In this document: piece after piece, positions 14,538 through 26,519 of the stretch
Numbering within the stretch: position 1 is the first letter of the stretch
How the letters are laid out: every line of letters starts with the position of its first letter
Assembly (NCBI GenBank): GCA_900498245.1
Contig: LS998015.1
Location: 256,380-320,379 of the forward strand
Direction: 5' to 3'
Source: Candidatus Zixiibacteriota bacterium
Lineage (GTDB): Bacteria; Zixibacteria; MSB-5A5; GN15; PGXB01
DNA: 64,000 nt
Program-made: the position numbers and the translations under genes
Notes under the pieces: generated by a model
Databases searched by the model: none
The model's input: only the letters and a program-made list of their open reading frames with translations
What the model was told of the DNA's origin: nothing

Positions 14538-15274
14538 GGATTTCTTTGGGAAATATAACCCGCCAACAACTAACTCTGATTGTCACCATGATAACGGTTT
14601 GAGGCTACGCATTGATTCTATGCGATGGATCAAAGGAATGATCGATGAAGTCGCAATGGAATTTTGAGCCGATGATGGTTTTTGCGTGCGACAATCCGTC
14701 AAGAACTCTCGCGATTAAAGGTCTGCGTGGTAAGCGAGTTCGCTGTAATATGCTAATATACAATAAGTTGCCGACGATGAAATCGAGCTTCCGTTCCGTT
14801 GTTTTAATAGCTGATATTTCTTCGCCCGTTAAGAGCCTATTGTCTTACCGTGTTCGAGGGTGATACTATGCAAAGCCAACCACAGAAAATTACAAAAATG
14901 TCTCAAATCTGTCTCAGTAGTTGTAACTCTATGTCCTGTATCACAAAATTGGGGTTCGAATCCCCTTGGGGGCGCTAATCATTTAAGATATTATTAATCA
15001 ATAAGTTACATCGGTAATCCCCCGTTTCCTTCATAAACCCTGTGGCCCTTTCTAATCCAGAAGGACTCAAAAAGGGAAATAAATCCGAAAATTCTTAAAA
15101 ATTCCCAAACTCAGACTGCCAGATTCTGACAGTGGCCATTCTTATATTCCAGAATGGTTTTGTGTGGCAACGTTTACTTCTTGTGGCATATACGTCAATT
15201 TGAACAATTCTGAAAGGCGTTCGTCGTTAGATTAGTACTGTAAGGCATTCGATCATTCATATTAAGGAGGGGAC
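14538..15274. other. Intergenic region between efflux operon and accessory cassettes
   Basis: No convincing gene. A 72-codon frame at 14645-14863 has no ribosome-binding site or recognisable content. The stretch is AT-rich and holds the tRNA 3'-end remnant at 14949-14977. A strong AAGGAGGGG ribosome-binding site precedes the gene starting at 15275. Confidence 0.6.
14949..14977 (+). other. Isolated tRNA 3' end (T-arm plus acceptor strand), possible attachment-site scar
   Basis: GGGGTTCGAATCCCC (14951-14965) is a canonical T-arm with TTCGAAT loop, followed by TTGGGGGCGCTA, which resembles an acceptor 3' strand ending close to CCA. The preceding 80 bases show no matching 5' acceptor strand, D-arm or anticodon arm, so it is not a complete tRNA. 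Such 3' fragments are left by elements that integrate into tRNA genes. No integrase or second copy was seen in the window. Confidence 0.55.
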
Positions 15275-18200
15275 ATGTTAGCCAAGGCATTGTCCATCAG
15301 ATTTTATTTGCTAGCAATTCTGGCAGCATTAACCATTTTATTACCCAGCGTCAGCTTTGCCACCGATGACAACGACGCGCAATTTGCGACATTGAATGAA
15401 GCGGACAGCATCGGTATTGTGGTTGAGCTACTGAATGTTGCCCTAAATAGGCCAAATCAGTTCAATCTGGATATGTTGCAGCCGCTTATGGTAGAACAAG
15501 TGTATTCCTCTTTTCTCCATAACTTGGGCGGATTGAATAATAAGGGTGAAAAGAACACGGCTACTGCTGCATTAACAAGCGGTGGCAAATACACACTTCA
15601 GTTAAGGAATTTTCAAAGAACATCATATGGTTATGATGTTAATCTTCAGATTTTTCTGGAAGCAAGCGGCTACTTGCTTGAGGACAGCACCAAATTGGAG
15701 ATGAAGGCATTTGGGGGGCTTAGGAAAATTACGAACTTGACTGATTTGGTATTCAGATCGAATAAATTATCTCTTCTTGCCAAAACTATCGATTCATTAG
15801 GCGTTAAGGCAAAAGCCGCCTATCGGGTCGCCTCAAAAGCAATGATTTCACAAATTCCCCAAAGTCTGAAAATGTTCCAGGAAGAATCCATCTATAATGA
15901 CTGTGACCGATTTTCAGTCAATTATAGCCAAACGAAGTTTGAGGGCAATGTAATAATGAACAGGCCCTATGGAATCTATTCCGTTTCCTATGTAGACCCT
16001 AACCCCAGTTTCTGCAGATATTTTCTAGTTTCAACAGATGCCAACTGGGATCGCATTATAGCGACAAGATATAATCCATGCGAGTCGGGACATGATGCCA
16101 TTGCGGCAATCGGACATCATGGCGACGACAATTTCGGCTTTGCCTCTCCCATGGGGATAAGTTTTGTTAATTGGAATTGGTTTGTCGCTGATGCATATAA
16201 TGGGAGAGTCCAGGCCTATAGACTTGATAACAATGACAATTTGACTCTAGGCGGCTATTTGAATGCTGGCTTTATCACGCCTGTCGATGTTGCGGCCGCG
16301 CACGTCCCGGGATCAGGCGGATGGGGAGATTGGGTAGCCGCAGTAGATAGAGATGCCAACCGGGTCGTTATATGCTACGCTAATGATGGATCCTTTAAAG
16401 AAAGCTATTTTAGTCTCGGCTCGGGGGTCGACCAACTTCGAAAACCAACAGCCCTGGCTTTTGCCGTGAATCCCGCAACCCACTCTTATGCAAATTATCT
16501 GTATGTTGTTGACAATGGCAATAAGAGAATAGTGCTTAAACATCTGGCCTATAACTTTGAGTGGTGTACGTCGGCGCCCGGTATATTTCCCCCTGATGCC
16601 TATCTGTCTTCAATAGACGTTGATATTTTCGGGAATATATTTGTTCTCGATTCCTATAATTCCGTTTTATACCTGATGGAAAGAGACCTCTCGGGGATCA
16701 TTGCCACTTTTGGCGGAAAAGGAACCGAAGCAGGCAAATTGTTCTATCCACAGAAATTTGCTGTTTCCCATGCCTATCAAAGCACCGATACTGCTGTCAT
16801 CCCTCTTCCAATAGGCAATGCTTTTGTTACAGAACAGATGGGGCCGAATTCCGGAGTTCGAAGGTATGAACGAGGTCTTCAGATACTCTCAGATGAAATC
16901 ATTTATCATCCCAAGGCCAGCAGATTTGGCTCCGACTATCTTGAAATAAATTGGACCCAGGACAATCCTGCCGCCTGTTCCTGCTTTGTTTTCTGGACCA
17001 ACAGCGGGCTTATGTATTACTCTTATACACCTTTCAGAATGCCTGGCACCGGTGGCATTATTGTCGCTTTTCCTTCCGGTGCGGATTCCAATGGTACCGC
17101 ATATGTGAGAGTCAAAATATCTTCGATTTTCGACCCCGGAAAGTATACCGATGAATTTGAAGAAGAGCTTTATATCCAGAGGCATTCTGATTCAATATAC
17201 TCCTTGCCCCATGTCGTTATTGGAGAGCATTGGATAACGTCGTCTTGGGTAGACAATCCCAGCGGTTGTATTTATCCATCAGATATTTACTGGTATGCGG
17301 CTGTCGATGTCACCGACAACTGGAAAACCGGTTTGAGTTATAAATGGGAAAGGGCATCGACCGCACATAATTATGCTACTCCGTCATTTTATAGTTTTCC
17401 TCACCCCAATTATCTAATCGGGGACAGCGCCATAACTTATTCTCCTTTCATCTATTTTAGGATAACCGCGCCGCCAATTTCAAATAATACTCCAGTATAT
17501 CAAAATGGCGATACCGTGACTCTGCTCCAGGTTCAGTTATTTGATTCCAGCGGAGCTCATTTGCGGGGAGCGGATACGTTGCCGCCGGCAAAATTGGATC
17601 CGGATTGGGTCTATGTAAATTTCAACTATCCTTTCTATGATTCCTACTGCAATACCCCCTGCACGACCTGTGCGCCGCCGCATCCGATTGACCCCGGATG
17701 CCCCATGCTCTCTTACTGGGATGGCAAGGAATACGTTTTTCAAAATAATATTCTGCCCAAATCCGAAAGCGAAGTGACCTCATATCAAAATACCTTAGAT
17801 TTCTACCCGATTTATCTGAATGACTTTGATCGGGGCGGGGAATATAAATTTCTGATCAGTGAAGACGAGCAGGAAATCTCCCGATTGGATAATTTTGCGC
17901 TTTATGCAGTTGATATCCCGAAGAAATTCAGCCGTGTTGCTCTGAGTTCCGAGACAGGTTTGGTTGCTCTCACCGACAATAAGACTCCTCCTTATTCTGC
18001 GGTAGCAAACGGGAGTGAAAACATTTTGCCGTATCTCGAACTTGAGGACACAAAAATCTATGCATCCTACAATCCCGGGTATATGGATTTGGAGTATCGC
18101 ATAGCTGATTCTTCGAAAATTGGCAAAATAACCACTGATGAGCCGCCCGGGGGAATCGATCCTAACGACCCATCCAAAAATATCTTGAAGCCGGTGGTAT

Positions 18201-18937
18201 TTAATGACTTTCAGTTCAGCCCCAATATTATAGCAATTCTGGCTCAGGATAGCGTTGGGAGACTTCAGCCGGTGCAAAAGCTATATCCCCGCACCAAAAG
18301 GGTCCGAAAAGGGATTGATCTATCCAAATACATTTACAAGGGCGTCCTGAAGATTCGCCTGCAATGGACCCAGCAAATCGTTATTAATTCCTTGCCATAC
18401 ATAAAATTCGAAAAAACCGGCGCAATAACTCAGCAATGCCAGATGGTTCAGGCCAGCCATTCTTCTTTTGGCTCTATAAGCCAGCAATTAAGAGCGGTTC
18501 GGGACAGCGCTATCTATCTCCGCCCCGGGGAAAAGATAGAACTCACCTTCCGCGGTTCGCCGCCGGCCGATTCGATGCGACGCGTTCTTATTCTAAAATC
18601 GATCGGCAAATATGAACGATTTGGCGGCAAAACAGCGATTGTTGAGACGGCTATTCCTGACAAGTTTGCTTTTAATCAGAATTTTCCTAATCCATTCAAT
18701 CCCACCACCACTTTCCGCTTTTCATTACCGGTAAGGGCGTCAGTTAAGTTGGAGGTAATCAATATATTAGGCCAAAAAGTGGCCGTCCTGGCAGATCGAA
18801 TCTATGAGGCCGGAACATATGACATCAACTGGGACGGGATATCTTCAGAAGGTTATCCCATTACCAGCGGGGTCTATTTTGCCAAATTTACCTCAAAAGA
18901 TTTTTCATCCACAAGAAAGGTGGTGGTGGTAAAATGA
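15275..18937 (+). CDS. Large exported propeller protein with type IX secretion sorting tail
   Basis: A 1220-residue protein with a signal peptide (FYLLAILAALTILLPSVSFA). Residues about 265-540 carry NHL-like blades (for example GISFVNWNWFVADAYNGRVQ, YLYVVDNGNKRIVLKHLA, NIFVLDSYNSVLYL), suggesting a beta-propeller. A middle beta-rich part contains a Cys cluster (YCNTPCTTCAPPHPIDPGC). Residues 1123-1220 are a type A sorting domain (QNFPNPFNPTTTFRFSLP ... GVYFAKF ... STRKVVVVK), which directs passage across the outer membrane and is normally cleaved. The start follows AAGGAGGGG. The stop overlaps the next gene (ATGA). AT-richer than neighbours. The domain types are clear; the ligand or target is not. 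Confidence 0.85.
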   Translation: MLAKALSIRFYLLAILAALTILLPSVSFATDDNDAQFATLNEADSIGIVVELLNVALNRPNQFNLDMLQPLMVEQVYSSFLHNLGGLNNKGEKNTATAALTSGGKYTLQLRNFQRTSYGYDVNLQIFLEASGYLLEDSTKLEMKAFGGLRKITNLTDLVFRSNKLSLLAKTIDSLGVKAKAAYRVASKAMISQIPQSLKMFQEESIYNDCDRFSVNYSQTKFEGNVIMNRPYGIYSVSYVDPNPSFCRYFLVSTDANWDRIIATRYNPCESGHDAIAAIGHHGDDNFGFASPMGISFVNWNWFVADAYNGRVQAYRLDNNDNLTLGGYLNAGFITPVDVAAAHVPGSGGWGDWVAAVDRDANRVVICYANDGSFKESYFSLGSGVDQLRKPTALAFAVNPATHSYANYLYVVDNGNKRIVLKHLAYNFEWCTSAPGIFPPDAYLSSIDVDIFGNIFVLDSYNSVLYLMERDLSGIIATFGGKGTEAGKLFYPQKFAVSHAYQSTDTAVIPLPIGNAFVTEQMGPNSGVRRYERGLQILSDEIIYHPKASRFGSDYLEINWTQDNPAACSCFVFWTNSGLMYYSYTPFRMPGTGGIIVAFPSGADSNGTAYVRVKISSIFDPGKYTDEFEEELYIQRHSDSIYSLPHVVIGEHWITSSWVDNPSGCIYPSDIYWYAAVDVTDNWKTGLSYKWERASTAHNYATPSFYSFPHPNYLIGDSAITYSPFIYFRITAPPISNNTPVYQNGDTVTLLQVQLFDSSGAHLRGADTLPPAKLDPDWVYVNFNYPFYDSYCNTPCTTCAPPHPIDPGCPMLSYWDGKEYVFQNNILPKSESEVTSYQNTLDFYPIYLNDFDRGGEYKFLISEDEQEISRLDNFALYAVDIPKKFSRVALSSETGLVALTDNKTPPYSAVANGSENILPYLELEDTKIYASYNPGYMDLEYRIADSSKIGKITTDEPPGGIDPNDPSKNILKPVVFNDFQFSPNIIAILAQDSVGRLQPVQKLYPRTKRVRKGIDLSKYIYKGVLKIRLQWTQQIVINSLPYIKFEKTGAITQQCQMVQASHSSFGSISQQLRAVRDSAIYLRPGEKIELTFRGSPPADSMRRVLILKSIGKYERFGGKTAIVETAIPDKFAFNQNFPNPFNPTTTFRFSLPVRASVKLEVINILGQKVAVLADRIYEAGTYDINWDGISSEGYPITSGVYFAKFTSKDFSSTRKVVVVK

Positions 18938-20511
18938 GAAGAGAAATTATTTTTATTATATTATTCATTGTGCTATTTATGGCAAATTGCTCCAAAAGAC
19001 CGGGCAACGCATCAAATAATCTGGAGCCAGCTATCTCTGCGACGCCAGAGGAGCCGACCCCGATTATACCGGCCTGGCCATATATCGGAGGCTGCGCAGA
19101 TGAAATAAGGCTCCGATTTCCGGTCAAGGGCCATACCGAACTTGATTCTGGCTTTGTGTGGCTCCAGATATTAAATAATGATTCCGTTCTCATCAATAGC
19201 GAACCAACTCCGATTAATGGCAATGTATTCTCCAGATCGAATATATTTGCCTTTTTCCAAAGAAGTCAATTACCGCCAGACACCTACGATCTAATGCTCT
19301 ATATTAGCAGAAATGTGAACGATGTCGGCCAAGCGCCTACAAGAATTACCGCGGCAGGGCCATATAAATTCGCGCTGGATTATTCCCTGATTACTGACAC
19401 CTCCTGCATTAGAGATACCGTCTTTTTGGGAGATACTGTTTATTTCAGTGCCGATTCAGTAGTGACATCAGATTCTCTGGGCTACAGATGGGATATTCAC
19501 GCCAGTAGGACTTATGTAGAGGGAAATTTCTATTTCATTTATGAAATAGAGGACGCTTTTAAAAAATATACGAATAGATGCCCTAAACTGAGCACTAACA
19601 TGTTTTTTCCCCTTAAAATGTCACGTCTAGATTCTGATTCCGTAACGTGGATTGTAACGCTTACTCGACAACGACTACCAGGAGAAAATGACTATGAAAA
19701 GGCGTTTCTTTATGTCTATCCACCAAGTAAACTTGGAAATATAGACAATGATTATGACACAACTATTATAAGATGTGCCGATTCGTTTGGAATACCTCCC
19801 CAAGTGATAAAGGCTATGATCTGGCAAGAATCAAAATTTGATAATTTTTCACTTCGTTATGAGATGAACTATGATTATGACTATATTCAATCTAGAATTA
19901 AAGATACCTCGAATGCAAACGTGAACATCTACGGAAGTCATTATTTCCTCGCTGATTGGAATCTCACCGGGAGCCCAAAGGGATTTACAAAAGATGGCGA
20001 TTCTGTTGAACAGGGAGATCATGTTAACGCCTTGCAGCGGAATCCATATAATGCATTACAATTCTGGTCGGAGCCAGATGTGAATGTTGTAGACTCCATC
20101 AGGGATTATCGGATTACCGCATGGGATTTATATATAAAAAATCCCGGACAGAATTGGAGATTTCCATCCTATGACTTTGTGGCTCAAGTAATCATCTCAA
20201 GTTCATATGGTTTGATGCATTTGACCTATATGACCGCCCTTGATGAAGGATATGGTTCAAAAGACCCTCAGGATTTGGTTTTTGGAGATACTCTGGGTAT
20301 AATATGGGGGGTTAAAAGGTTGCGACATATATATTATAATTCTGCGTGGGTAAATCCCAATTATATTTGGGGTGATAAATGGAAGACAGCCATTGGCAAA
20401 TATAATGGCGGTACAAGTGTGGCTGAAACTAATGGTGTCTTCACAAACTCCAAGATTAATGATTATGTAAATTCTGTATTAACAAGAGCCGGAAATTATA
20501 GACCTTATTAA
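18934..20511 (+). CDS. Lipoprotein with C-terminal lysozyme-like (SLT) domain, cassette 1
   Basis: A 525-residue lipoprotein with the lipid-attachment Cys at 19 (LFMANCSK). An N-terminal beta-rich region of about 250 residues is followed by a transglycosylase-like domain from about 280: IPPQVIKAMIWQESKFDN contains the likely catalytic Glu299, SSSYGLMHLTYMTA matches the GLMQ-type motif, and WKTAIGKYNGGT the late motif. It probably cleaves peptidoglycan. The start overlaps the stop of the sorting-tail gene by 4 bp, so the two proteins are made together. The second cassette repeats this arrangement, which implies a functional partnership. A structural, non-enzymatic role is possible. Confidence 0.8.
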   Translation: MRREIIFIILFIVLFMANCSKRPGNASNNLEPAISATPEEPTPIIPAWPYIGGCADEIRLRFPVKGHTELDSGFVWLQILNNDSVLINSEPTPINGNVFSRSNIFAFFQRSQLPPDTYDLMLYISRNVNDVGQAPTRITAAGPYKFALDYSLITDTSCIRDTVFLGDTVYFSADSVVTSDSLGYRWDIHASRTYVEGNFYFIYEIEDAFKKYTNRCPKLSTNMFFPLKMSRLDSDSVTWIVTLTRQRLPGENDYEKAFLYVYPPSKLGNIDNDYDTTIIRCADSFGIPPQVIKAMIWQESKFDNFSLRYEMNYDYDYIQSRIKDTSNANVNIYGSHYFLADWNLTGSPKGFTKDGDSVEQGDHVNALQRNPYNALQFWSEPDVNVVDSIRDYRITAWDLYIKNPGQNWRFPSYDFVAQVIISSSYGLMHLTYMTALDEGYGSKDPQDLVFGDTLGIIWGVKRLRHIYYNSAWVNPNYIWGDKWKTAIGKYNGGTSVAETNGVFTNSKINDYVNSVLTRAGNYRPY

Positions 20512-20532
20512 CGTTTGGGAGTTGGAGGAAAT

Positions 20533-21204
20533 ATGAAAAGAATTGCATACGCTTTTATTTTTACATTGATGCTGCTAGATAACGCGAATGCGGATGGCAA
20601 TAAAATGGATACACTGATTAATAAGTATATTGATGCCTCAATTCTAATGAAGTGCGATTCCGCCCTGGCGAAGATGAGTGGATATGAGGACAGCGCTCAA
20701 GATGCGAAATTCTTTAAACCTGAAATTGCGCATTCAGGATATTTGAGAATAAAGGATACTGCCTACTACGCTTTGTTGTTCAGATGCAGCGGATTTGGTC
20801 AGTTTTTATTAATTGATTCAATTGAAAGAGATGTGGTGCGTGGAAAAATTGATATTCAAATTCCTGGAAGTGATGCTTTGTTTAATACTGCAGATATTAA
20901 AGATATAAATGGTGATAGCATACCAGAGTTGGAGTTTGCTCTTACTGCCGGAGCCCATGGATATTATGTTTGTTATCTGTCCCTGAACCTAGACAAACTG
21001 AATTTTCTCAAATATGACAACGGAGAATATCTCTTCTTTGCAATTATGGGCGGCATTGAGCTGATTCCAACCAGCAAACCAAATGTCTTTGATATCGGGG
21101 TGGGTAATTGGCTGGAGAAAGGACAGAGGGCTAATTACACTGTCTACAAATGGAATGGCAAAAACTATGAAGTCAAAGAGAATGTAGTAAAGAGTGATAA
21201 ATAA
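20533..21204 (+). CDS. Small secreted protein, paralogue of the gene at 52648
   Basis: A 223-residue protein with a signal peptide, starting at the ATG at 20533 after TTGGAGGA. No family recognised. The core has IKDINGDSIPELEF, the kind of Asp-rich turn found in calcium-binding or FG-GAP-like repeats, and ends in YKWNGKNYEVKE, common in periplasmic beta-rich proteins. It follows the lysozyme-like lipoprotein by 21 bp in the same apparent operon. The homologue at 52648 aligns start to end without gaps. From 20650 to 21125 the two are nearly identical at DNA level (about ten differences by eye) while the signal-peptide ends are clearly diverged. A periplasmic inhibitor of the lysozyme-like partner is one possibility, unproven. 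Confidence 0.75.
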   Translation: MKRIAYAFIFTLMLLDNANADGNKMDTLINKYIDASILMKCDSALAKMSGYEDSAQDAKFFKPEIAHSGYLRIKDTAYYALLFRCSGFGQFLLIDSIERDVVRGKIDIQIPGSDALFNTADIKDINGDSIPELEFALTAGAHGYYVCYLSLNLDKLNFLKYDNGEYLFFAIMGGIELIPTSKPNVFDIGVGNWLEKGQRANYTVYKWNGKNYEVKENVVKSDK

Positions 21205-21229
21205 AAGGCTCTTTACATGATCGATAATG

Positions 21230-21261
21230 AAGGCAGGAATTAACAAGTTTCCTGCCTTTTT
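21230..21261 (+). terminator. Rho-independent terminator ending cassette 1
   Basis: A perfect 10-bp stem AAGGCAGGAA (21230-21239) / TTCCTGCCTT (21249-21258) with a run of T at its 3' side, 25 bp after the stop of the small secreted protein gene. Confidence 0.85.
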
Positions 21262-21351
21262 ATAGGACCTGCAGATTGACAATTGAAAGCAATATAATGA
21301 ATGACAGACGCTCACATTAATTGTGTCTACCCCGTCATCCGCATTAGGCTG

Positions 21352-21422
21352 GTTCGAAAGTCTTCAATAAAGGGACGCCAAAGTTGATGAATCGGCGATT
21401 TCTTCCCAAATCGCCTTTTTTG
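21352..21422 (+). repeat. 71-bp repeat ending in a terminator hairpin, copy 1
   Basis: It matches 26134-26204 without gaps. I count about six differences, four of them in the hairpin loop. The hairpin GGCGATTT (21394-21401) / AAATCGCC (21408-21415) is unchanged and followed by six T. The conserved 42 bases before the hairpin make a small RNA or a 3'-UTR module possible. It lies after cassette 1. Confidence 0.8.
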
Positions 21423-21776
21423 TTGGGCTTCTCTTTTGGAGTAAACTGGTTCCGGAAGAGCCTTAGGGGCGAATAACCGCCTTTCAGGGCAAGACTCAGC
21501 AGAACATTGGAATATGGAACCGGGCGTTTCTACCGACTATTTGAGTTGAATATTAAAGAACGAAGCAGAATAGATCGGTCTCTAATAAGACAGATGAGCA
21601 TATGCCGGAATTTGGTTTTGTTGGCTCTCGGGTGAGCAACATGGTTTCGACATCGTTTACTTCGTCATTTTCCCTTTCTAAAACAATTGTCAACATATAA
21701 TATGATTATAATTGAAAGGCCTTGGATTTGGGAGCGATTGCCTCAAACTTGATGCATATCAGATATTATGACAATC

Positions 21777-21793
21777 CCCACCCGTTGGGTGGG
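21777..21793. repeat. Short palindrome CCCACCC-GTT-GGGTGGG
   Basis: A perfect 7-bp inverted repeat followed by TTACCGG. The same core and tail occur at 43471-43487, and close variants at 43036-43053 and 43508-43525. Here it sits directly against the point where homology to the sorting tail begins (21801). Confidence 0.8.
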
Positions 21794-21800
21794 TTACCGG

Positions 21801-22097
21801 GTTGAGACGGCTATTCCCGACGAGTTTGCTTTTGATCAGAATTTCCCTAATCCATTCAATCCCACCACCACTTTCCGCTTTTCATTACCGGTAAGGGCGT
21901 CAGTTAAGTTGGAGGTATTCAATATATTAGGCCAAAAAGTGGCTACCATAGCCGATCAAACTTATGAGGCTGGAACATATGACATCAACTGGGATGGAGT
22001 GTCTTCCGAAGGCTTTCCCATCACCAGCGGAGTCTATTTTGCCAAATTTACCTCAAAAGATTTTTCATCTACAAGAAAGGTGGTGGTGGTAAAATGA
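21801..22097 (+). pseudogene. Detached type IX sorting tail, remnant of a large exported protein
   Basis: This 98-codon stretch aligns without gaps to the last 98 codons of the 1220-residue protein (18641-18937; roughly 90% identical by eye) and includes FPNPFNPTTTFRFSLP, GVYFAKF and the STRKVVVVK end. The open frame extends back only to 21768, through the palindrome, with no signal peptide or passenger, so it cannot be a normal secreted product. Its stop still overlaps the next lipoprotein gene by 4 bp, as in cassette 1. It looks like the 3' stump of a former second propeller gene whose body was lost by recombination at the palindrome. Confidence 0.8.
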
Positions 22098-23932
22098 GAA
22101 AAGGCACTCTGTCATTCTTAATTTTCTGCTCACTTATGCTTTTTGTGTTAATTCAAATTGGGTGCGATACATTAACTAGCATTGCAAAGGGTATAGCATT
22201 ATGCTTGGCCGGGAATGAAAAGGCATGTAAATGCTGGGATATCTCAGCTGCGAGGCCGTGCGATAGCGATCCTAATTGGCCCCCGCCAGCTCCGGATGAT
22301 CCCGATTATCCGCCAGGAACGGGTGTGGATATAAGATGCGATGGGCCCAGTTTTAAAGCAAGGGTGTCCGGCAAATTAAGTTCTGCATCAGGTTATTTAT
22401 GGTTGGCCTTGGAAGATAAGTCCTCACAGTCATCAGACGAGATACTTTCAATAAGCCAAGCAGTTCGTGTTTCGGGGGAAACATTCACGGGATTATGGAT
22501 GCGAGTCCCGCTCGGTGGTTTGGACCTGCAGAATAAGGAATATGATGTTGGCCTATATTTTTGCAGCGCTTTGACAGATGTTGGCAGTCCGAAGAAAAGT
22601 ATTGTTAGAGATGATGGCAATCTTCATGTGACTTTTACGGAAATGCATAGAAATCTGGCCAAATTTTGGGTTTCAAAGGCCTCTTTTGACAAAGCCTTGG
22701 CAGCAAATAATGATTATTGTATATTTAATGGAGACAGTATCGAATTTACTGCAATCTGCAATGATGCTAGTTCGGATTCGCAATTTATAGAAGTTGTGGA
22801 AGGACATAGTTATTATTCAAATGGCGTTACATGGCGGGTTGAAGGGCAATTAACCCCACCTGCGGGGTCGATTTCAAGCAACGGCTTATTCATTGCTGAA
22901 TACTTGGCTGTCCATGATGGGGATTGCATGGTGATCGGGCATGACAATTCTAACGGCTTGGAAGACACAGTTGATATATTTATTTTCGATAAATGTGAAT
23001 CTAGTATTTATATTGCCGAAGGGGATAACGCTATATCACCAGGTGAATGTGTTTATATTGATTCGACTCCTCAAATGCCAGATCTTAAATTTATGCTTGA
23101 CCCGCCTAATTCAGGGGAACAATTCAGTTGGACCCTTTCAATCAAGTACAACAGGAGCGGTCGAAATGATTATAAGCAATATCACACTTTACTATATGGA
23201 AATGAAACGTGGATTCTTAGAGACAGTTTAAAAAGTGATATTATCGGGGGTGAAGCCCAAATTGCCTGTTCGAGCCTAGCAACTGGATGCATGACAGGAG
23301 AATGGTTTTCAATTAGAGGTCGTAACGCGACCGAAGCGGAAGTAGAAAGTTATATCACAAATCTCCCTGGGAATTTGTGGTATTGGAAATACGTTGCAAG
23401 GCATGAATCTGATAAACCGACGCAGGGAAGATACCATTGCCAATTTAATGAAAAAGGTGACTTCAGTTGTGACCCTTCTGATGTGCGTTATACTCCTAAC
23501 GCAAGTGGTGACAGTGGCTTTGGCATTTTTCAGTTGACTTGGTTTGACTACCCCACTAGAGTTCCAAATATTCAAGAACTATGGTCTTGGAAAGGAAATG
23601 TAAATAGCGGAACGGAATGGCTAAGACATCATCAATCCCATACCAGTGGCGCAAATGAATATATGCAGGTCGAAAGAGCGCAGGCATTATCGTTTGCAAG
23701 TGATTCTCTTCATCCTCCTATTGAGGTTTTGGGCAATGTCACTTTTCGCGATGGCACTGACAAATTTATGGAGCACGCTGTTGCAATCAAAAGATTTAAT
23801 GGAACAGGCGGAGGGGGGAATGGTCAATATTGCGAATGGGACGAGACAAATCACTCATGGGTAATTCATAAACTAAATAATTATGATCCACCATTTAATT
23901 ATGTTGAACGCGTTTGTTTGACTTACCCATAA
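22094..23932 (+). CDS. Lipoprotein with C-terminal lysozyme-like domain, cassette 2
   Basis: A 612-residue lipoprotein with lipid-attachment Cys24 (LIQIGC). A Pro-rich linker (PPPAPDDPDYPPG) and a long beta-rich region precede a lysozyme-like C-terminus: KYVARHESDKP holds the likely catalytic Glu438, GDSGFGIFQLTW is the GxxQ-type motif, and NSGTEWLRHH and AIKRFNGTGGG fit the helical rest of the fold. The layout equals that of the cassette 1 lipoprotein, including ATGA coupling to an upstream sorting tail, but the sequences are far diverged. Expected role: peptidoglycan cleavage from a lipid-anchored position. Confidence 0.75.
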   Translation: MRKGTLSFLIFCSLMLFVLIQIGCDTLTSIAKGIALCLAGNEKACKCWDISAARPCDSDPNWPPPAPDDPDYPPGTGVDIRCDGPSFKARVSGKLSSASGYLWLALEDKSSQSSDEILSISQAVRVSGETFTGLWMRVPLGGLDLQNKEYDVGLYFCSALTDVGSPKKSIVRDDGNLHVTFTEMHRNLAKFWVSKASFDKALAANNDYCIFNGDSIEFTAICNDASSDSQFIEVVEGHSYYSNGVTWRVEGQLTPPAGSISSNGLFIAEYLAVHDGDCMVIGHDNSNGLEDTVDIFIFDKCESSIYIAEGDNAISPGECVYIDSTPQMPDLKFMLDPPNSGEQFSWTLSIKYNRSGRNDYKQYHTLLYGNETWILRDSLKSDIIGGEAQIACSSLATGCMTGEWFSIRGRNATEAEVESYITNLPGNLWYWKYVARHESDKPTQGRYHCQFNEKGDFSCDPSDVRYTPNASGDSGFGIFQLTWFDYPTRVPNIQELWSWKGNVNSGTEWLRHHQSHTSGANEYMQVERAQALSFASDSLHPPIEVLGNVTFRDGTDKFMEHAVAIKRFNGTGGGGNGQYCEWDETNHSWVIHKLNNYDPPFNYVERVCLTYP

Positions 23933-23966
23933 CTATAACAGTTATGCAGATAAGGGGATATGCTTT

Positions 23967-25148
23967 ATGAAAAATCAGGTTATTTTAAAGAAATTTCGCG
24001 TCGACGCTGTATATATTATTATTGTTCTAACAATGCTGCTTTTCACGCGCGGTTGGTGCGCAAGCCAGATCTTTTTTATCTATGGCCAGCCTTGCTTTGA
24101 AAAACCAGGACACATTCCTTACCCGGTGACAATTTTCAATTTCAACGAGAGCACGAAATCACTAGACTCACTCTGGTCGCCTGAATTTCGGAGTATGGCT
24201 TGGAGCATAGATGTATATTCGAATGAAGGATATATCATCATTTCTGACGGTAATTCATATCCCAGCAGAGTGCAAATTATGCCCATGTCTTCATTTTCGC
24301 AATCAAGCGTTTTGAATACTTCCGACCTCAAAGGAATTTCAAATTATTACTTCTTTCCCGAAGAAACCGCGCCAGGCTCCTTATTGGTTTCCCATTTGAC
24401 TAATCAAACGATCTCGACAGGAGGCAATCCTTTCATCGGTACTGCATATCATTTCGATGCCAAGGGCGCGATTCAAAAATCTGCGAGCATTCCCTCAGGT
24501 GACAATGTCAGATTAGCAGGGCCAAATTCCCCCTATAGTGGTGGAGGTAGAGGTGATGTAATAAGTTTCAGGACCCTGTCAGACATACCCGCTAGGCCAG
24601 TGGGAATTGACCTCTCTTTTAGTGGGCCTCCTGTCCCCGATAGTATCGTTCAATCGAAGCAATCATATGGTTGGGTAATGATCGCCAATCAACCGCGCTT
24701 TAGGGTATTTATGTCTGTTCCGGAACGAAATGGACTAGATCAGAGGGAATTATTGATATATCGAGTCGATTCTGGTGTATGGAAGTCTTTAATGATTAGT
24801 GGGGCGGAAACATCTCCCAAATTGATTGATGGCTGGCTGGCAGGAGTAATAGCAGATTCAGACCCTGAAACAGATTTTACCATTCGTAAGGCTTTTCCAT
24901 CAATTCCTAGAGAAGATGTTGTTCTTATAAATCCCATGGAAAATCGTGAATTTGAAATTCATTTGGGCCCTTCAAGCGAAGTTCTTTGGATTGAAGGGAA
25001 TGAAGTCTATTATCGAATGGGAGAAGGTTTATATAAAGCCACAATTCAAAATGATGATTTTGTGAACAGGTCGCTGCTAATAAAAGATACCATTGTTAAT
25101 GGAATTCATTGGGCGTTCCGTGGCTCAATGGGATCCACAGGTAATTGA
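23967..25148 (+). CDS. Exported protein of unknown function, possibly beta-propeller
   Basis: A 393-residue protein with a hydrophobic signal near residues 14-32 (VYIIIVLTMLLFTRGWCA). I do not recognise the family. The sequence is a run of short beta strands with blade-like returns (MAWSIDVYSNEGYIIISDGN, YGWVMIANQPRFRVFMSVPE), so a propeller is possible. It starts 34 bp after the lysozyme-like lipoprotein, with AAGGGGATATGCTTT before the ATG, and takes the third position of cassette 2, which in cassette 1 holds the small secreted protein. Confidence 0.65.
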   Translation: MKNQVILKKFRVDAVYIIIVLTMLLFTRGWCASQIFFIYGQPCFEKPGHIPYPVTIFNFNESTKSLDSLWSPEFRSMAWSIDVYSNEGYIIISDGNSYPSRVQIMPMSSFSQSSVLNTSDLKGISNYYFFPEETAPGSLLVSHLTNQTISTGGNPFIGTAYHFDAKGAIQKSASIPSGDNVRLAGPNSPYSGGGRGDVISFRTLSDIPARPVGIDLSFSGPPVPDSIVQSKQSYGWVMIANQPRFRVFMSVPERNGLDQRELLIYRVDSGVWKSLMISGAETSPKLIDGWLAGVIADSDPETDFTIRKAFPSIPREDVVLINPMENREFEIHLGPSSEVLWIEGNEVYYRMGEGLYKATIQNDDFVNRSLLIKDTIVNGIHWAFRGSMGSTGN

Positions 25149-25248
25149 TATTGAAATTGAATATTATTATATGCAGGTTCCATAAAAATATCTTAACAAT
25201 CAATATCCTACTTACTTGTAGATTTAATTGAGAATCGGAGGGCAAAAT

Positions 25249-25782
25249 ATGTTAAGAATACTCCAAAGACTATTAGTCGTTTCCATTATTATAGTTGCAC
25301 TGATTATACCGTCAATGAGTCTGGCATTCGACGGACAAAGAAAGGGACTAAATCTGGGCGGAGGAATAGGCATCTGCCCGGCCTCCCAAATATCATATTA
25401 TGGAAGAGGCGATATCGGGGTATCGTTGGATCTATCAATTGGCTATTCTTTCGGCAATCAAAACACTTTCTTGTGGTCGGTCAAAGGGGCCATTTCGCAT
25501 TTTAGCGAGGCCGGTTCATTGGCTCATGAAATTGATGGTCTGAACTGGTACCATTATTTTAAAAAGGACACACCATCAATCTATAGCATAATGGGATTCG
25601 GTATTTCGATTTTCGGCAACTCCTGTTGGACAAGTGCACATGGAGCATGGTCTATTGTGGGTCTTGGGTATGAATTTACAAGACATTTAGCTATAAATGG
25701 ATTCTTTCTCTCTGCGGGACCAAATCACGGAGACATTCATTTTGAAAGCGCAAATATAACCATGAGTGCAATGATATATTGA
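25249..25782 (+). CDS. Small exported beta-rich protein, outer-membrane barrel-like
   Basis: A 177-residue protein with signal peptide (LLVVSIIIVALIIPSMSLAF), starting at the ATG at 25249 after GGAGGGC; the frame's earlier start at 25228 overlaps this site. The mature part alternates glycine and aromatic residues (NLGGGIGICPASQISYYGRG, IVGLGYEFTRHLAINGFFL), as in small outer-membrane barrels. Family not recognised. It is the last gene of cassette 2. Confidence 0.65.
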   Translation: MLRILQRLLVVSIIIVALIIPSMSLAFDGQRKGLNLGGGIGICPASQISYYGRGDIGVSLDLSIGYSFGNQNTFLWSVKGAISHFSEAGSLAHEIDGLNWYHYFKKDTPSIYSIMGFGISIFGNSCWTSAHGAWSIVGLGYEFTRHLAINGFFLSAGPNHGDIHFESANITMSAMIY

Positions 25783-26519
25783 TAAAACGCTTTGTAAATC
25801 CTTTCAGCCATATCTTGTGATTCCTGAAATATCCTCCAATAGCCTCCTTATACTATTATTCAAATGAAATGAAAAGGCCAAGATTTTGAAAAAGAATATG
25901 CGAAAAAGTTGACATAAAATCATATACAATAACTACAGCAAGAATCAGGTGAGATAACTTGCCTTTTTTAATTTGATGAGTTCGAAACCACTGCATTAAT
26001 TCTTCAAATTTGCCCTCAATTTCACGATCTTGCGCGATGCGGCCAATTTTATTCTTGGTTTCAGCCTTGTATCAATCGTTTGAAAGATAAAGGATTATCA
26101 GAGGCCAATTATCCTGCCTTCCGTATTAAAATAGTTCGAAATTCTTCAATAAAAGGACGCCAAAGTTGATGAATCGGCGATTTACTTCTAAATCGCCTTT
26201 TTTGATATTTCGAATCACAAAAAGAACTGCCTTGCGCCCTTCTTCTTAGGTTTATCATCGCAATCGAATGTAATGAGCGGTTCGCGCATACTCGGATAGT
26301 ATCATGGCCGCGCGGGGAAAAAGTAAAATTAGCCAAATTAATCAAGAAGCGATATTAGGGGTCATAGTAAAACTTACTGCGGGGAAATTCCGCTTTTCAG
26401 AAAATTACTACCTCTACTAATGTCATACCCCTTTGAAACTTATATCATCTTTTTCCGTCCAATTATCGGTGACTGGTTGGAGTTAGTCGACCTATTTCAT
26501 AATTGCGGGAGTGAAAAAA
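25783..26519. other. Intergenic region after cassette 2
   Basis: No convincing gene on either strand. It contains the second copy of the 71-bp repeat with terminator hairpin (26134-26204). The remainder is AT-rich with no further feature recognised. Confidence 0.6.
26134..26204 (+). repeat. 71-bp repeat ending in a terminator hairpin, copy 2
   Basis: Same repeat as 21352-21422 at a constant offset of 4782 bp. Stem GGCGATTT (26176-26183) / AAATCGCC (26190-26197) followed by six T; only the loop and two upstream bases differ appreciably. It follows cassette 2 as copy 1 follows cassette 1. Confidence 0.8.

Follow-up and report, generated by a model that had tools for sequence, protein, structure and literature searches.

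Why would a bacterium carry two copies of one protein sorting tail in succession, each overlapping the start of a different lipoprotein gene? The arrangement lies in a window of 64,000 nt (the whole stretch of DNA analyzed) from Candidatus Zixiibacteriota bacterium (GCA_900498245.1, contig LS998015.1, positions 256,380-320,379, forward strand). A first-pass annotation had described two tandem cassettes, each joining a cell-surface propeller to a lysozyme-like lipoprotein, and had proposed a peptidoglycan-remodelling or antagonism module. We consider it fairly probable that this is a polymorphic-toxin-like locus of exchangeable cassettes, in which a T9SS-sorted NHL propeller is the fixed component and a translationally coupled lipoprotein with its immunity-like gene is the exchangeable one.

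Results

One propeller gene is followed by two lipoprotein cassettes

The elements of the earlier description were all found: the units lie in tandem and have sorting tails, lipoboxes, ATGA overlaps, genes for small exported proteins and a closing repeat. The features, in window coordinates, are as follows.

15275-18937, + strand: NHL beta-propeller protein, 1220 aa, exported, with a C-terminal T9SS type A sorting tail (TIGR04183 and NHL profile matches); the fixed component
18641-18940, + strand: arm 1, the proposed 5' recombination arm, comprising the tail and the first bases of the lipoprotein 1 gene (DNA self-comparison)
18934-20511, + strand: lipoprotein 1 (class A), with lipobox, common N-terminal domain, predicted SLT-type transglycosylase C-terminus and ATGA overlap with the tail stop (motifs, profiles)
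20533-21204, + strand: sm1, the small exported protein paired with class A and immunity-like in character; a TTG at 20515 is an alternative start
21232-21262, + strand: intrinsic-terminator-like hairpin 3' of sm1, read from the letters; its 9-nt loop is outside the limits of the terminator scan
21328-21422, + strand: copy 1 of the 3' flank repeat, with an intrinsic-terminator-like hairpin at its end (stem 21394-21415)
21768-22097, + strand: orphan sorting-tail ORF, 109 aa, lacking a signal peptide and containing arm 2 (21801-22100)
22094-23932, + strand: lipoprotein 2 (class B), with lipobox, common N-terminal domain, lysozyme-like motifs and ATGA overlap (motifs)
23967-25148, + strand: p6, exported partner of the class B lipoprotein (homologues directly 3' of class B lipoproteins in two other genomes)
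25246-25782, + strand: p7, small outer-membrane beta-barrel-like protein (homologues near partner genes in genome G039)
26110-26204, + strand: copy 2 of the 3' flank repeat, with an intrinsic-terminator-like hairpin at its end (stem 26176-26197)

The claim of two propeller-lipoprotein cassettes did not hold. There is one propeller gene and two interchangeable cassettes, the second unit having the tail only, with neither signal peptide nor propeller. PADLOC gave no match of note to known defence systems.

The family profile of the propeller protein matches the NHL propellers Thin/TRIM71 (E 1e-31), and no TANFOR domain was reported in it by Pfam and NCBIfam scans. The type A sorting domain (TIGR04183, curated cut-off 23 bits) scores 35.1 bits in unit 1 and 46.3 bits in unit 2. 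The T9SS translocon SprA is also present in the genome, as a 1960-aa frame that matches SprA_N with E 7e-30. From the sorting domain and the presence of SprA, the propeller protein is a predicted T9SS cargo. ATGA coupling of tail and lipoprotein was found at 13/14 junctions; in arm 1, the codons for the tail end (...VVVK) also carry a GGTGG stretch just 5' of the lipoprotein ATG. Tail coupling is one variant and is not universal, since the other families of this taxonomic class have the genes in the opposite order, often with a propeller that has no sorting tail.

The terminator-ended closing repeat, given earlier as 71 bp, measured 72 nt at 93% identity (95 nt at 84%). With only two copies in the 3.5-Mb genome, a mobile or attC-like repeat family was ruled out. 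A structured RNA was likewise rejected: copy 1 gave a z of -0.4 against shuffles and copy 2 a modest -1.7, the clear structure being the terminator hairpin, and a comparison with Rfam returned no match.

The two lipoproteins carry different putative catalytic domains

The glutamates singled out by the first-pass annotation, E299 and E438, do sit in catalytic-type motifs. In lipoprotein 1, E299 is the glutamate of WQES and is accompanied by SYGLMH and YNGG. The Pfam SLT score of this protein (19.8 bits) falls just under the cut-off of 21.3, and the class A family profile matches SLT70 and MltC with E values of 6e-5 to 1e-3, in agreement with the muralytic role first suggested. Taking together the SLT profile, the catalytic glutamate and the GLMQ-like and YNGG motifs, lipoprotein 1 is a predicted GH23/SLT lytic transglycosylase. 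It had no match in plasmids.

Lipoprotein 2 has the motif order HES...GFGIFQ...FNGTGG, E438 being the glutamate of HES, and this order is conserved in its homologue as HET...GFGIYQ...YNGASG. These motifs make it a candidate for a lysozyme fold. The protein had no family match and no PDB match, its C-terminus gave a weak profile match to class A with no clearly detectable common C-terminal domain, and the domain was not found in viral contigs. AlphaFold models of the whole protein and of the C-terminal domain, built on a two-sequence alignment, had pLDDT values of 29 and 33 and were discarded as uninformative. Of the two lysozyme-like C-termini proposed earlier, that of lipoprotein 1 is thus backed by profiles, as SLT-type, and that of lipoprotein 2 at motif level.

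Sorting-tail DNA is duplicated in front of different cargo

The segment 21801-22100 is a 92% (91.7%) DNA copy of 18641-18940, extending over 300 bp in the same frame, with an arm 2 tail of 98 residues. What was copied is the 3' end of the first gene, and the copy ends a few bases from the lipoprotein start codon. There are 59 matches to the tail in the genome and all except the two copies show at most 49% protein identity; this is therefore a specific duplication, closer than the resemblance that sorting tails have by chance. Other Zixibacteria also have duplicated arms that stop where the lipoprotein gene starts, namely G015 (335 bp, 91.9%), G067 (405 bp, 86.4%) and G039 (603 bp, 94.7%), and single arms were found in two further genomes (G024 and G020). 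The cargo differs between the duplicated arms in all four genomes, and proteins behind near-identical arms are only about 24-34% identical. The four arm pairs contain no stops and have dN/dS values of about 0.06-0.25, from which we infer that the orphan tails were recently the ends of working genes. Accidental local copying of the tail, followed by decay, would suit the finding that the window's genome has no more than two copies of the arm. Yet such an accident is already disfavoured by the recurrence of the same boundary in G015, G067 and G039, and neither the lack of stops, nor dN/dS values well below 1, nor the distinct intact cargo behind each arm is what it predicts, so that we regard it as highly improbable.

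In a tree, the arms of one genome are sisters with 100% bootstrap whatever their cargo, whereas the cargo groups across genera. The orphan lipoprotein 2 and p6 match a cassette that is loaded in G061 (lipoprotein 2, 48% over 301 aa). Polymorphic toxin systems are recognized in part by free-standing cassettes able to recombine with their main locus, and the orphan cassette appears to be such a unit. Arm duplications, arm/cargo discordance, cargo classes and effector-partner adjacency together point to cassette exchange. A search for an empty site via the downstream DUF5916 gene led, in a same-genus genome, to entirely different neighbours (ABC-transporter-like genes) and to no clean empty site.

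Cargo classes have their own exported partners

The co-occurrence proposed from the window extends well beyond it: the series of tail gene, ATGA overlap, lipoprotein gene and gene for a small exported protein is found repeatedly across Zixibacteria. At least four cargo classes were distinguished: A (SLT transglycosylase), B (lysozyme-like), C (no recognized family) and D (archaemetzincin-like, from a sub-threshold match with HExxH). The exported partner is class-specific and lies next to the effector: class and partner match at 6 loci for A, 3 for B, 8 for C and 4 for D (21 in all), a raw locus count that ignores genome kinship. Partners within class A resemble one another only weakly (16-25% identity), so the pairing in this class rests partly on position.

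An N-terminal domain is common to classes A, B and C, whose C-termini have no match to each other. An HMM built from class C alone ranks lipoprotein 2 (E 1e-4) and lipoprotein 1 (1.4e-3) first among non-C proteins, and 0/2000 shuffles of each protein reached its real score. Neither class D nor the class B homologue L012_2 gave a significant match to the domain. The two lipoproteins had been described as alike in architecture and little alike in sequence; the likeness holds for the N-terminal domain, at about 25% identity, and does not clearly extend to the C-termini. A conserved N-terminal part with variable C-terminal domains is also a criterion of polymorphic toxin systems, and one to which these lipoproteins seem to conform.

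The variety of cargo bears on two other explanations. One, suggested by the first-pass annotation, is that the lipoproteins clear a way through the producer's own peptidoglycan for its T9SS or propeller protein; class A does have MltC and SLT70 among its relatives, and those enzymes work on the wall of the cell that makes them. However, the same slot also holds metzincin-like or unassigned lipoproteins, so the system is not specifically muralytic, the distribution is patchy (the propeller gene is absent from the same-genus genome G001) and the window's genome already has three ordinary SLT proteins. We find this role very unlikely; remodelling was too narrow a label, and antagonism, the other half of the original suggestion, would fit better. 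The second explanation, to which we give equally little credence, is that the lipoprotein is swapped by recombination as surface variation against phages or grazers, with enzymatic activity secondary. A loaded gene with truncated cassettes and homology arms does recall pilE/pilS-type variation (PMC3848433), but here the cargo consists of different protein families with dedicated partners, not of variants of one protein, and catalytic motifs are kept where recognizable.

The occurrence of effectors and partners was compared in class C. The partner adjoins the effector in 12/13 assessable loci, and there are 53 partner matches in 33 of 132 Zixibacteria genomes compared with 17 effector matches in 14 genomes, some partners forming effector-free arrays of two to four genes. 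As the effector rarely occurs without the partner while the partner is often alone or arrayed, the partner behaves as immunity genes do. The effector of class C, the commonest class, had no Pfam or PDB match and none in phages; 'enzyme' is a candidate label, and the invariant Q and E may point to glutamic peptidases of the neprosin/eqolisin type. An unlikely, though not negligible, alternative is a surface degradation kit, in which the propeller binds substrate, lipoprotein hydrolases digest dead or prey cells as food, and the partners shield the producer's envelope as chaperones or inhibitors of a pro-peptide-like kind. The recognizable classes are hydrolases, many T9SS cargoes are digestive enzymes, and the weak PepSY (peptidase-propeptide) matches in 2/10 class C partners and FG-GAP-like hints in partners would suit folding helpers. 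Such a kit, however, predicts neither orphan tail fragments with cargo nor enzyme-free lone partners and arrays.

Discussion

Under cassette exchange, the reading we prefer, the fixed part would be the NHL-propeller protein, sent to the surface by its type IX sorting tail, and the exchangeable part an outer-membrane lipoprotein, possibly displayed next to the propeller, with a common N-terminal domain and a variable, potentially toxic C-terminus aimed at the envelope. The cognate exported partner would most likely be the immunity protein of the lipoprotein. The last codons of the tail would hold the translation-start context of the lipoprotein, so that a cassette could work wherever it is joined to a tail. 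Conserved tail DNA, in some genomes along with the post-cassette repeat, may provide the homology that lets a cassette be displaced, reloaded or passed from one strain to another. Within the window, the cassette loaded behind the propeller gene would be the SLT one, with the lysozyme-like cassette kept as an orphan in reserve; since the orphan is preceded by two terminators and has only a tail fragment in front of it, expression of its effector is improbable. If switching takes place today, recombination of one 300-bp arm with the other would remove the SLT cassette and bring the second into its place in frame.

Similar logic is known elsewhere. CDI (cdiBAI) and Rhs loci carry orphan toxin/immunity modules that are interchanged by recombination (PMC3150448), and as in the Zixibacteria locus a full-length carrier gene is followed by a module that opens with a piece of the conserved carrier sequence, without the carrier's export start, and continues with a different effector and a downstream gene. 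In those systems, however, the effector is the C-terminal domain of the carrier, whereas here it is a separate, overlapping lipoprotein gene and looks envelope-directed; the carrier is an NHL propeller with a T9SS tail, and neither CdiB/two-partner secretion nor Rhs repeats were seen, so the locus lacks the CdiA or Rhs carrier with C-terminally fused effector that would place it among them. Meningococcal TpsA/tpsC/IORF islands also have truncated, signal-less cassettes interspersed with immunity genes, for which collection of immunity genes was the proposed benefit (PMC3848433), but they rely on two-partner secretion and fuse the cargo to TpsA. The gene layout also matches that of myxobacterial SitBAI, with its overlapping order of SitB accessory, SitA lipoprotein toxin and SitI immunity (PMC5562445): a lipoprotein with a type II signal, an overlapping upstream gene and a downstream partner, and, as in SitA, a common N-terminus with a differing C-terminus. 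In contrast, SitB is a predicted outer-membrane barrel, no sorting-tail arms are described, and SitA toxins are as a rule nuclease-like and reach other cells through TraA-dependent outer-membrane exchange. The TANFOR polymorphic toxins of Bacteroidetes have a proposed T9SS link in common with our locus, and the toxin is sometimes encoded in the next gene, followed by immunity; the text of that paper does not contain the word lipoprotein (PMC7073777). Finally, the partner-only arrays resemble the effector-free immunity gene arrays left by successive displacement in the Vibrio cholerae T6SS (PMC5361080), although T6SS delivery differs.

A bolder proposal, which we hold tentatively and at slightly less than even chances, is that this is an undescribed class of interbacterial weapon in Zixibacteria: an NHL propeller displayed through the T9SS would act together with translationally coupled, lipid-anchored envelope hydrolases, effector/immunity cassettes would be swapped by recombination in sorting-tail DNA, and at least one new effector family (class C) would be paired with a PepSY-like immunity protein. 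If true, this would extend cassette-swapped polymorphic weapons to Zixibacteria, a phylum for which the literature searched describes none, and a type IX sorting tail would be both export tag and recombination arm. It would also define four effector/partner pairs, some of new families, and offer hypotheses of function for lipoprotein and exported 'hypothetical' families in many Zixibacteria genomes.

Organization of the two units and origin of the second sorting tail

The window lies in a 3.5-Mb genome assembled as one contig, in which the T9SS translocon gene SprA was also found.

Features of the two units (window coordinates)
15275-18937: propeller gene, encoding an exported protein of 1220 aa with a C-terminal T9SS type A sorting tail
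18641-18940: arm 1, the propeller gene 3' end together with the initial bases of the gene for lipoprotein 1
18934-20511: lipoprotein 1 (525 aa)
20533-21204: small exported partner of lipoprotein 1
21328-21422: repeat copy 1 (95 bp)
21768-22097: orphan sorting tail (109-aa ORF)
21801-22100: arm 2
22094-23932: lipoprotein 2 (612 aa)
23967-25148: p6, exported partner of lipoprotein 2
25246-25782: p7, exported protein
26110-26204: repeat copy 2

A profile of the propeller-protein family matched structurally characterized NHL beta-propellers (E 1e-31), and the sorting tail scored 35.1 bits against a cut-off of 23. The propeller-gene stop overlaps the start of lipoprotein 1 as ATGA. Next come the small exported protein, then a terminator-like hairpin, and finally the 95-bp repeat, which ends in a terminator-like hairpin of its own. 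Unit 2 runs from the orphan tail through ATGA, lipoprotein 2, p6 and p7 to repeat copy 2, and we found no further copies of the repeat in the 3.5-Mb genome. Translated on the minus strand, both copies give a similar 30-residue peptide with a terminal stop (KRRF..KSPIHQLWRPFIE.FRT), either the remnant of a gene or a chance likeness.

The first-pass annotation had described tandem cassettes; both units are indeed present, but the second has neither a propeller nor an export signal. Its tail is a 92% DNA copy of arm 1 with the frame kept. Among 59 matches to this tail in the genome, protein identity reached at most 49% outside the arm 1/arm 2 pair, which indicates that the copying is peculiar to these two. 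Since two terminator-like hairpins separate the units, the unit 2 effector, lipoprotein 2, is suggested to be normally silent, and its partners might be expressed from putative internal promoters.

Conservation of the layout in other Zixibacteria genomes

We followed the sequence downstream from propeller-gene relatives in further genomes of the order, most of them draft assemblies with some loci cut at contig ends. The tail stop overlaps the lipoprotein start in seven genomes (G061, G037, G075, G011, G015, G039 and G067), with ATGA in 13 of all 14 junctions inspected, orphan arms counted. In G004 a dockerin-like end replaces the tail, and a lipoprotein and partner still lie downstream. Tail arms are duplicated with differing cargo in G015 (335 bp, 91.9%), G067 (405 bp, 86.4%) and G039 (603 bp, 94.7%; two contigs with different downstream genes, sharing an additional 182-bp, 89% stretch 3' of the cassette), each copy stopping no more than about six bases from ATGA. 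Additional arms in G024 and G020 are joined to class C lipoproteins. Lipoproteins 3' of near-identical arms are just ~24-34% identical to each other. More distant families of the class have the order lipoprotein-partner-propeller, with classes A and D preceding the propeller gene, and their propellers often carry a dockerin-like end and no sorting tail.

Cargo classes and a shared lipoprotein N-terminus

Cassette classes
A (lipoprotein 1): SLT-type transglycosylase lipoprotein and its exported partner
B (lipoprotein 2): lysozyme-like lipoprotein (putative fold, by motifs) with a p6-type partner
C: unassigned lipoproteins that share invariant Q and E residues, with a partner family of their own (weak PepSY matches in 2/10 partners)
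D: HExxH lipoprotein (sub-threshold archaemetzincin match, 25 bits) with an exported partner bearing TPR-like repeats

Class-matched partners were found in 21 loci (A 6, B 3, C 8, D 4); random dealing would give such matching about once in 1e10, a figure that ignores relatedness of the genomes and is qualified by the strong divergence of class A partners. When an HMM built from only the class C region 3' of the lipobox was run against 405 proteins, lipoprotein 2 (E 1e-4) and lipoprotein 1 (E 1.4e-3) ranked immediately below the class C members, and none of 2000 shuffles of either attained the real score. The two also match each other in the region after the lipobox. Because of this ranking, the shuffles and the mutual match, classes A, B and C look like a single lipoprotein family with exchangeable C-termini.

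Evidence for exchange and for possible partner immunity

In the arm tree, both copies of a genome are sisters (100% bootstrap) irrespective of cargo, as seen for classes A and B in the window's genome and for D and C in G039. Cargo groups the opposite way: the window's orphan lipoprotein 2 and p6 are related to the cassette loaded behind the propeller gene in G061 (48% over 301 aa for the lipoprotein). The arm pairs have dN/dS of ~0.2, 0.25, 0.1 and 0.06 and no stops, which indicates that the orphan tails were ends of working genes until recently; one G024 arm has a stop.

For class C, a phylum-wide search returned 17 matches to the effector, spread over 14 genomes, against 53 to the partner in 33 genomes. 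After loci cut by contig ends were left out, the partner adjoins the effector in 12 of 13 assessable loci, G077 being the exception; one of the 12, in G053, combines a disrupted effector with two intact partners. Partners often occur without an effector, forming arrays of two in G064 and G041, of three in G036 and of four in G062. Immunity genes of CDI and T6SS loci show the same asymmetry (PMC3150448, PMC5361080), which here points, circumstantially, to immunity.

Possible mobile elements and neighboring genes

A 25-nt copy (96%) of the tRNA-Glu(TTC) 3' end lies at 14951-14975, which is 300 nt 5' of the propeller gene. The intact tRNA and an adjoining tyrosine-integrase-like gene lie ~20.7 kb upstream (genome 250622-271354; stretch L199, 5523-5600 and 5734-6750). 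The intervening region looks like an integrated element with efflux pumps, the cassette locus being just beyond its right end. Judged by eye, a class A lipoprotein in G026 (L010, 11192-13243) carries an in-frame fused integrase-like N-terminal sequence, and an integrase-like fragment without a Pfam match lies just past the class B cassette in G061 (L012, 84-317), which would place cassettes close to mobile-element genes. A toxin-antitoxin-like nucleotidyltransferase-HEPN pair adjoins cassettes in G067 (L052, 11456-12479) and G020 (L183, 1-967); its DNA is 90% identical over 1106 nt between these different genera, which suggests that array DNA was exchanged recently. The small, outer-membrane barrel-like p7 recurs at L167 6651-7196 and L050 6132-6686, beside a class C partner that stands alone and close to a class D cassette in G039. 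In G083 (L089, 3-1728), two tandem class D partners precede a propeller gene, right where the examined stretch begins or ends.

Comparison with known systems and proposed mechanism

The locus shares its working principle with CDI/Rhs orphan modules (PMC3150448), tpsC cassettes (PMC3848433) and V. cholerae immunity arrays (PMC5361080), and its carrier-lipoprotein-immunity order resembles myxobacterial SitBAI (PMC5562445). Membership in CDI or Rhs was ruled out on the carrier and on effector fusion. Among open-licence papers, we found nothing on Zixibacteria and T9SS and nothing relevant on Zixibacteria with toxin and immunity.

At the level of sequence, our comparisons show a fixed propeller gene, a lipoprotein gene that overlaps it and is thereby translationally coupled, interchangeable cassettes of lipoprotein and partner, and flanking repeats. 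The lipoprotein would be placed in the outer membrane close to the propeller, its C-terminus would harm the envelope of neighbors and the partner would protect the producer, while cassette 2 may be loadable through recombination of the 300-bp arms.
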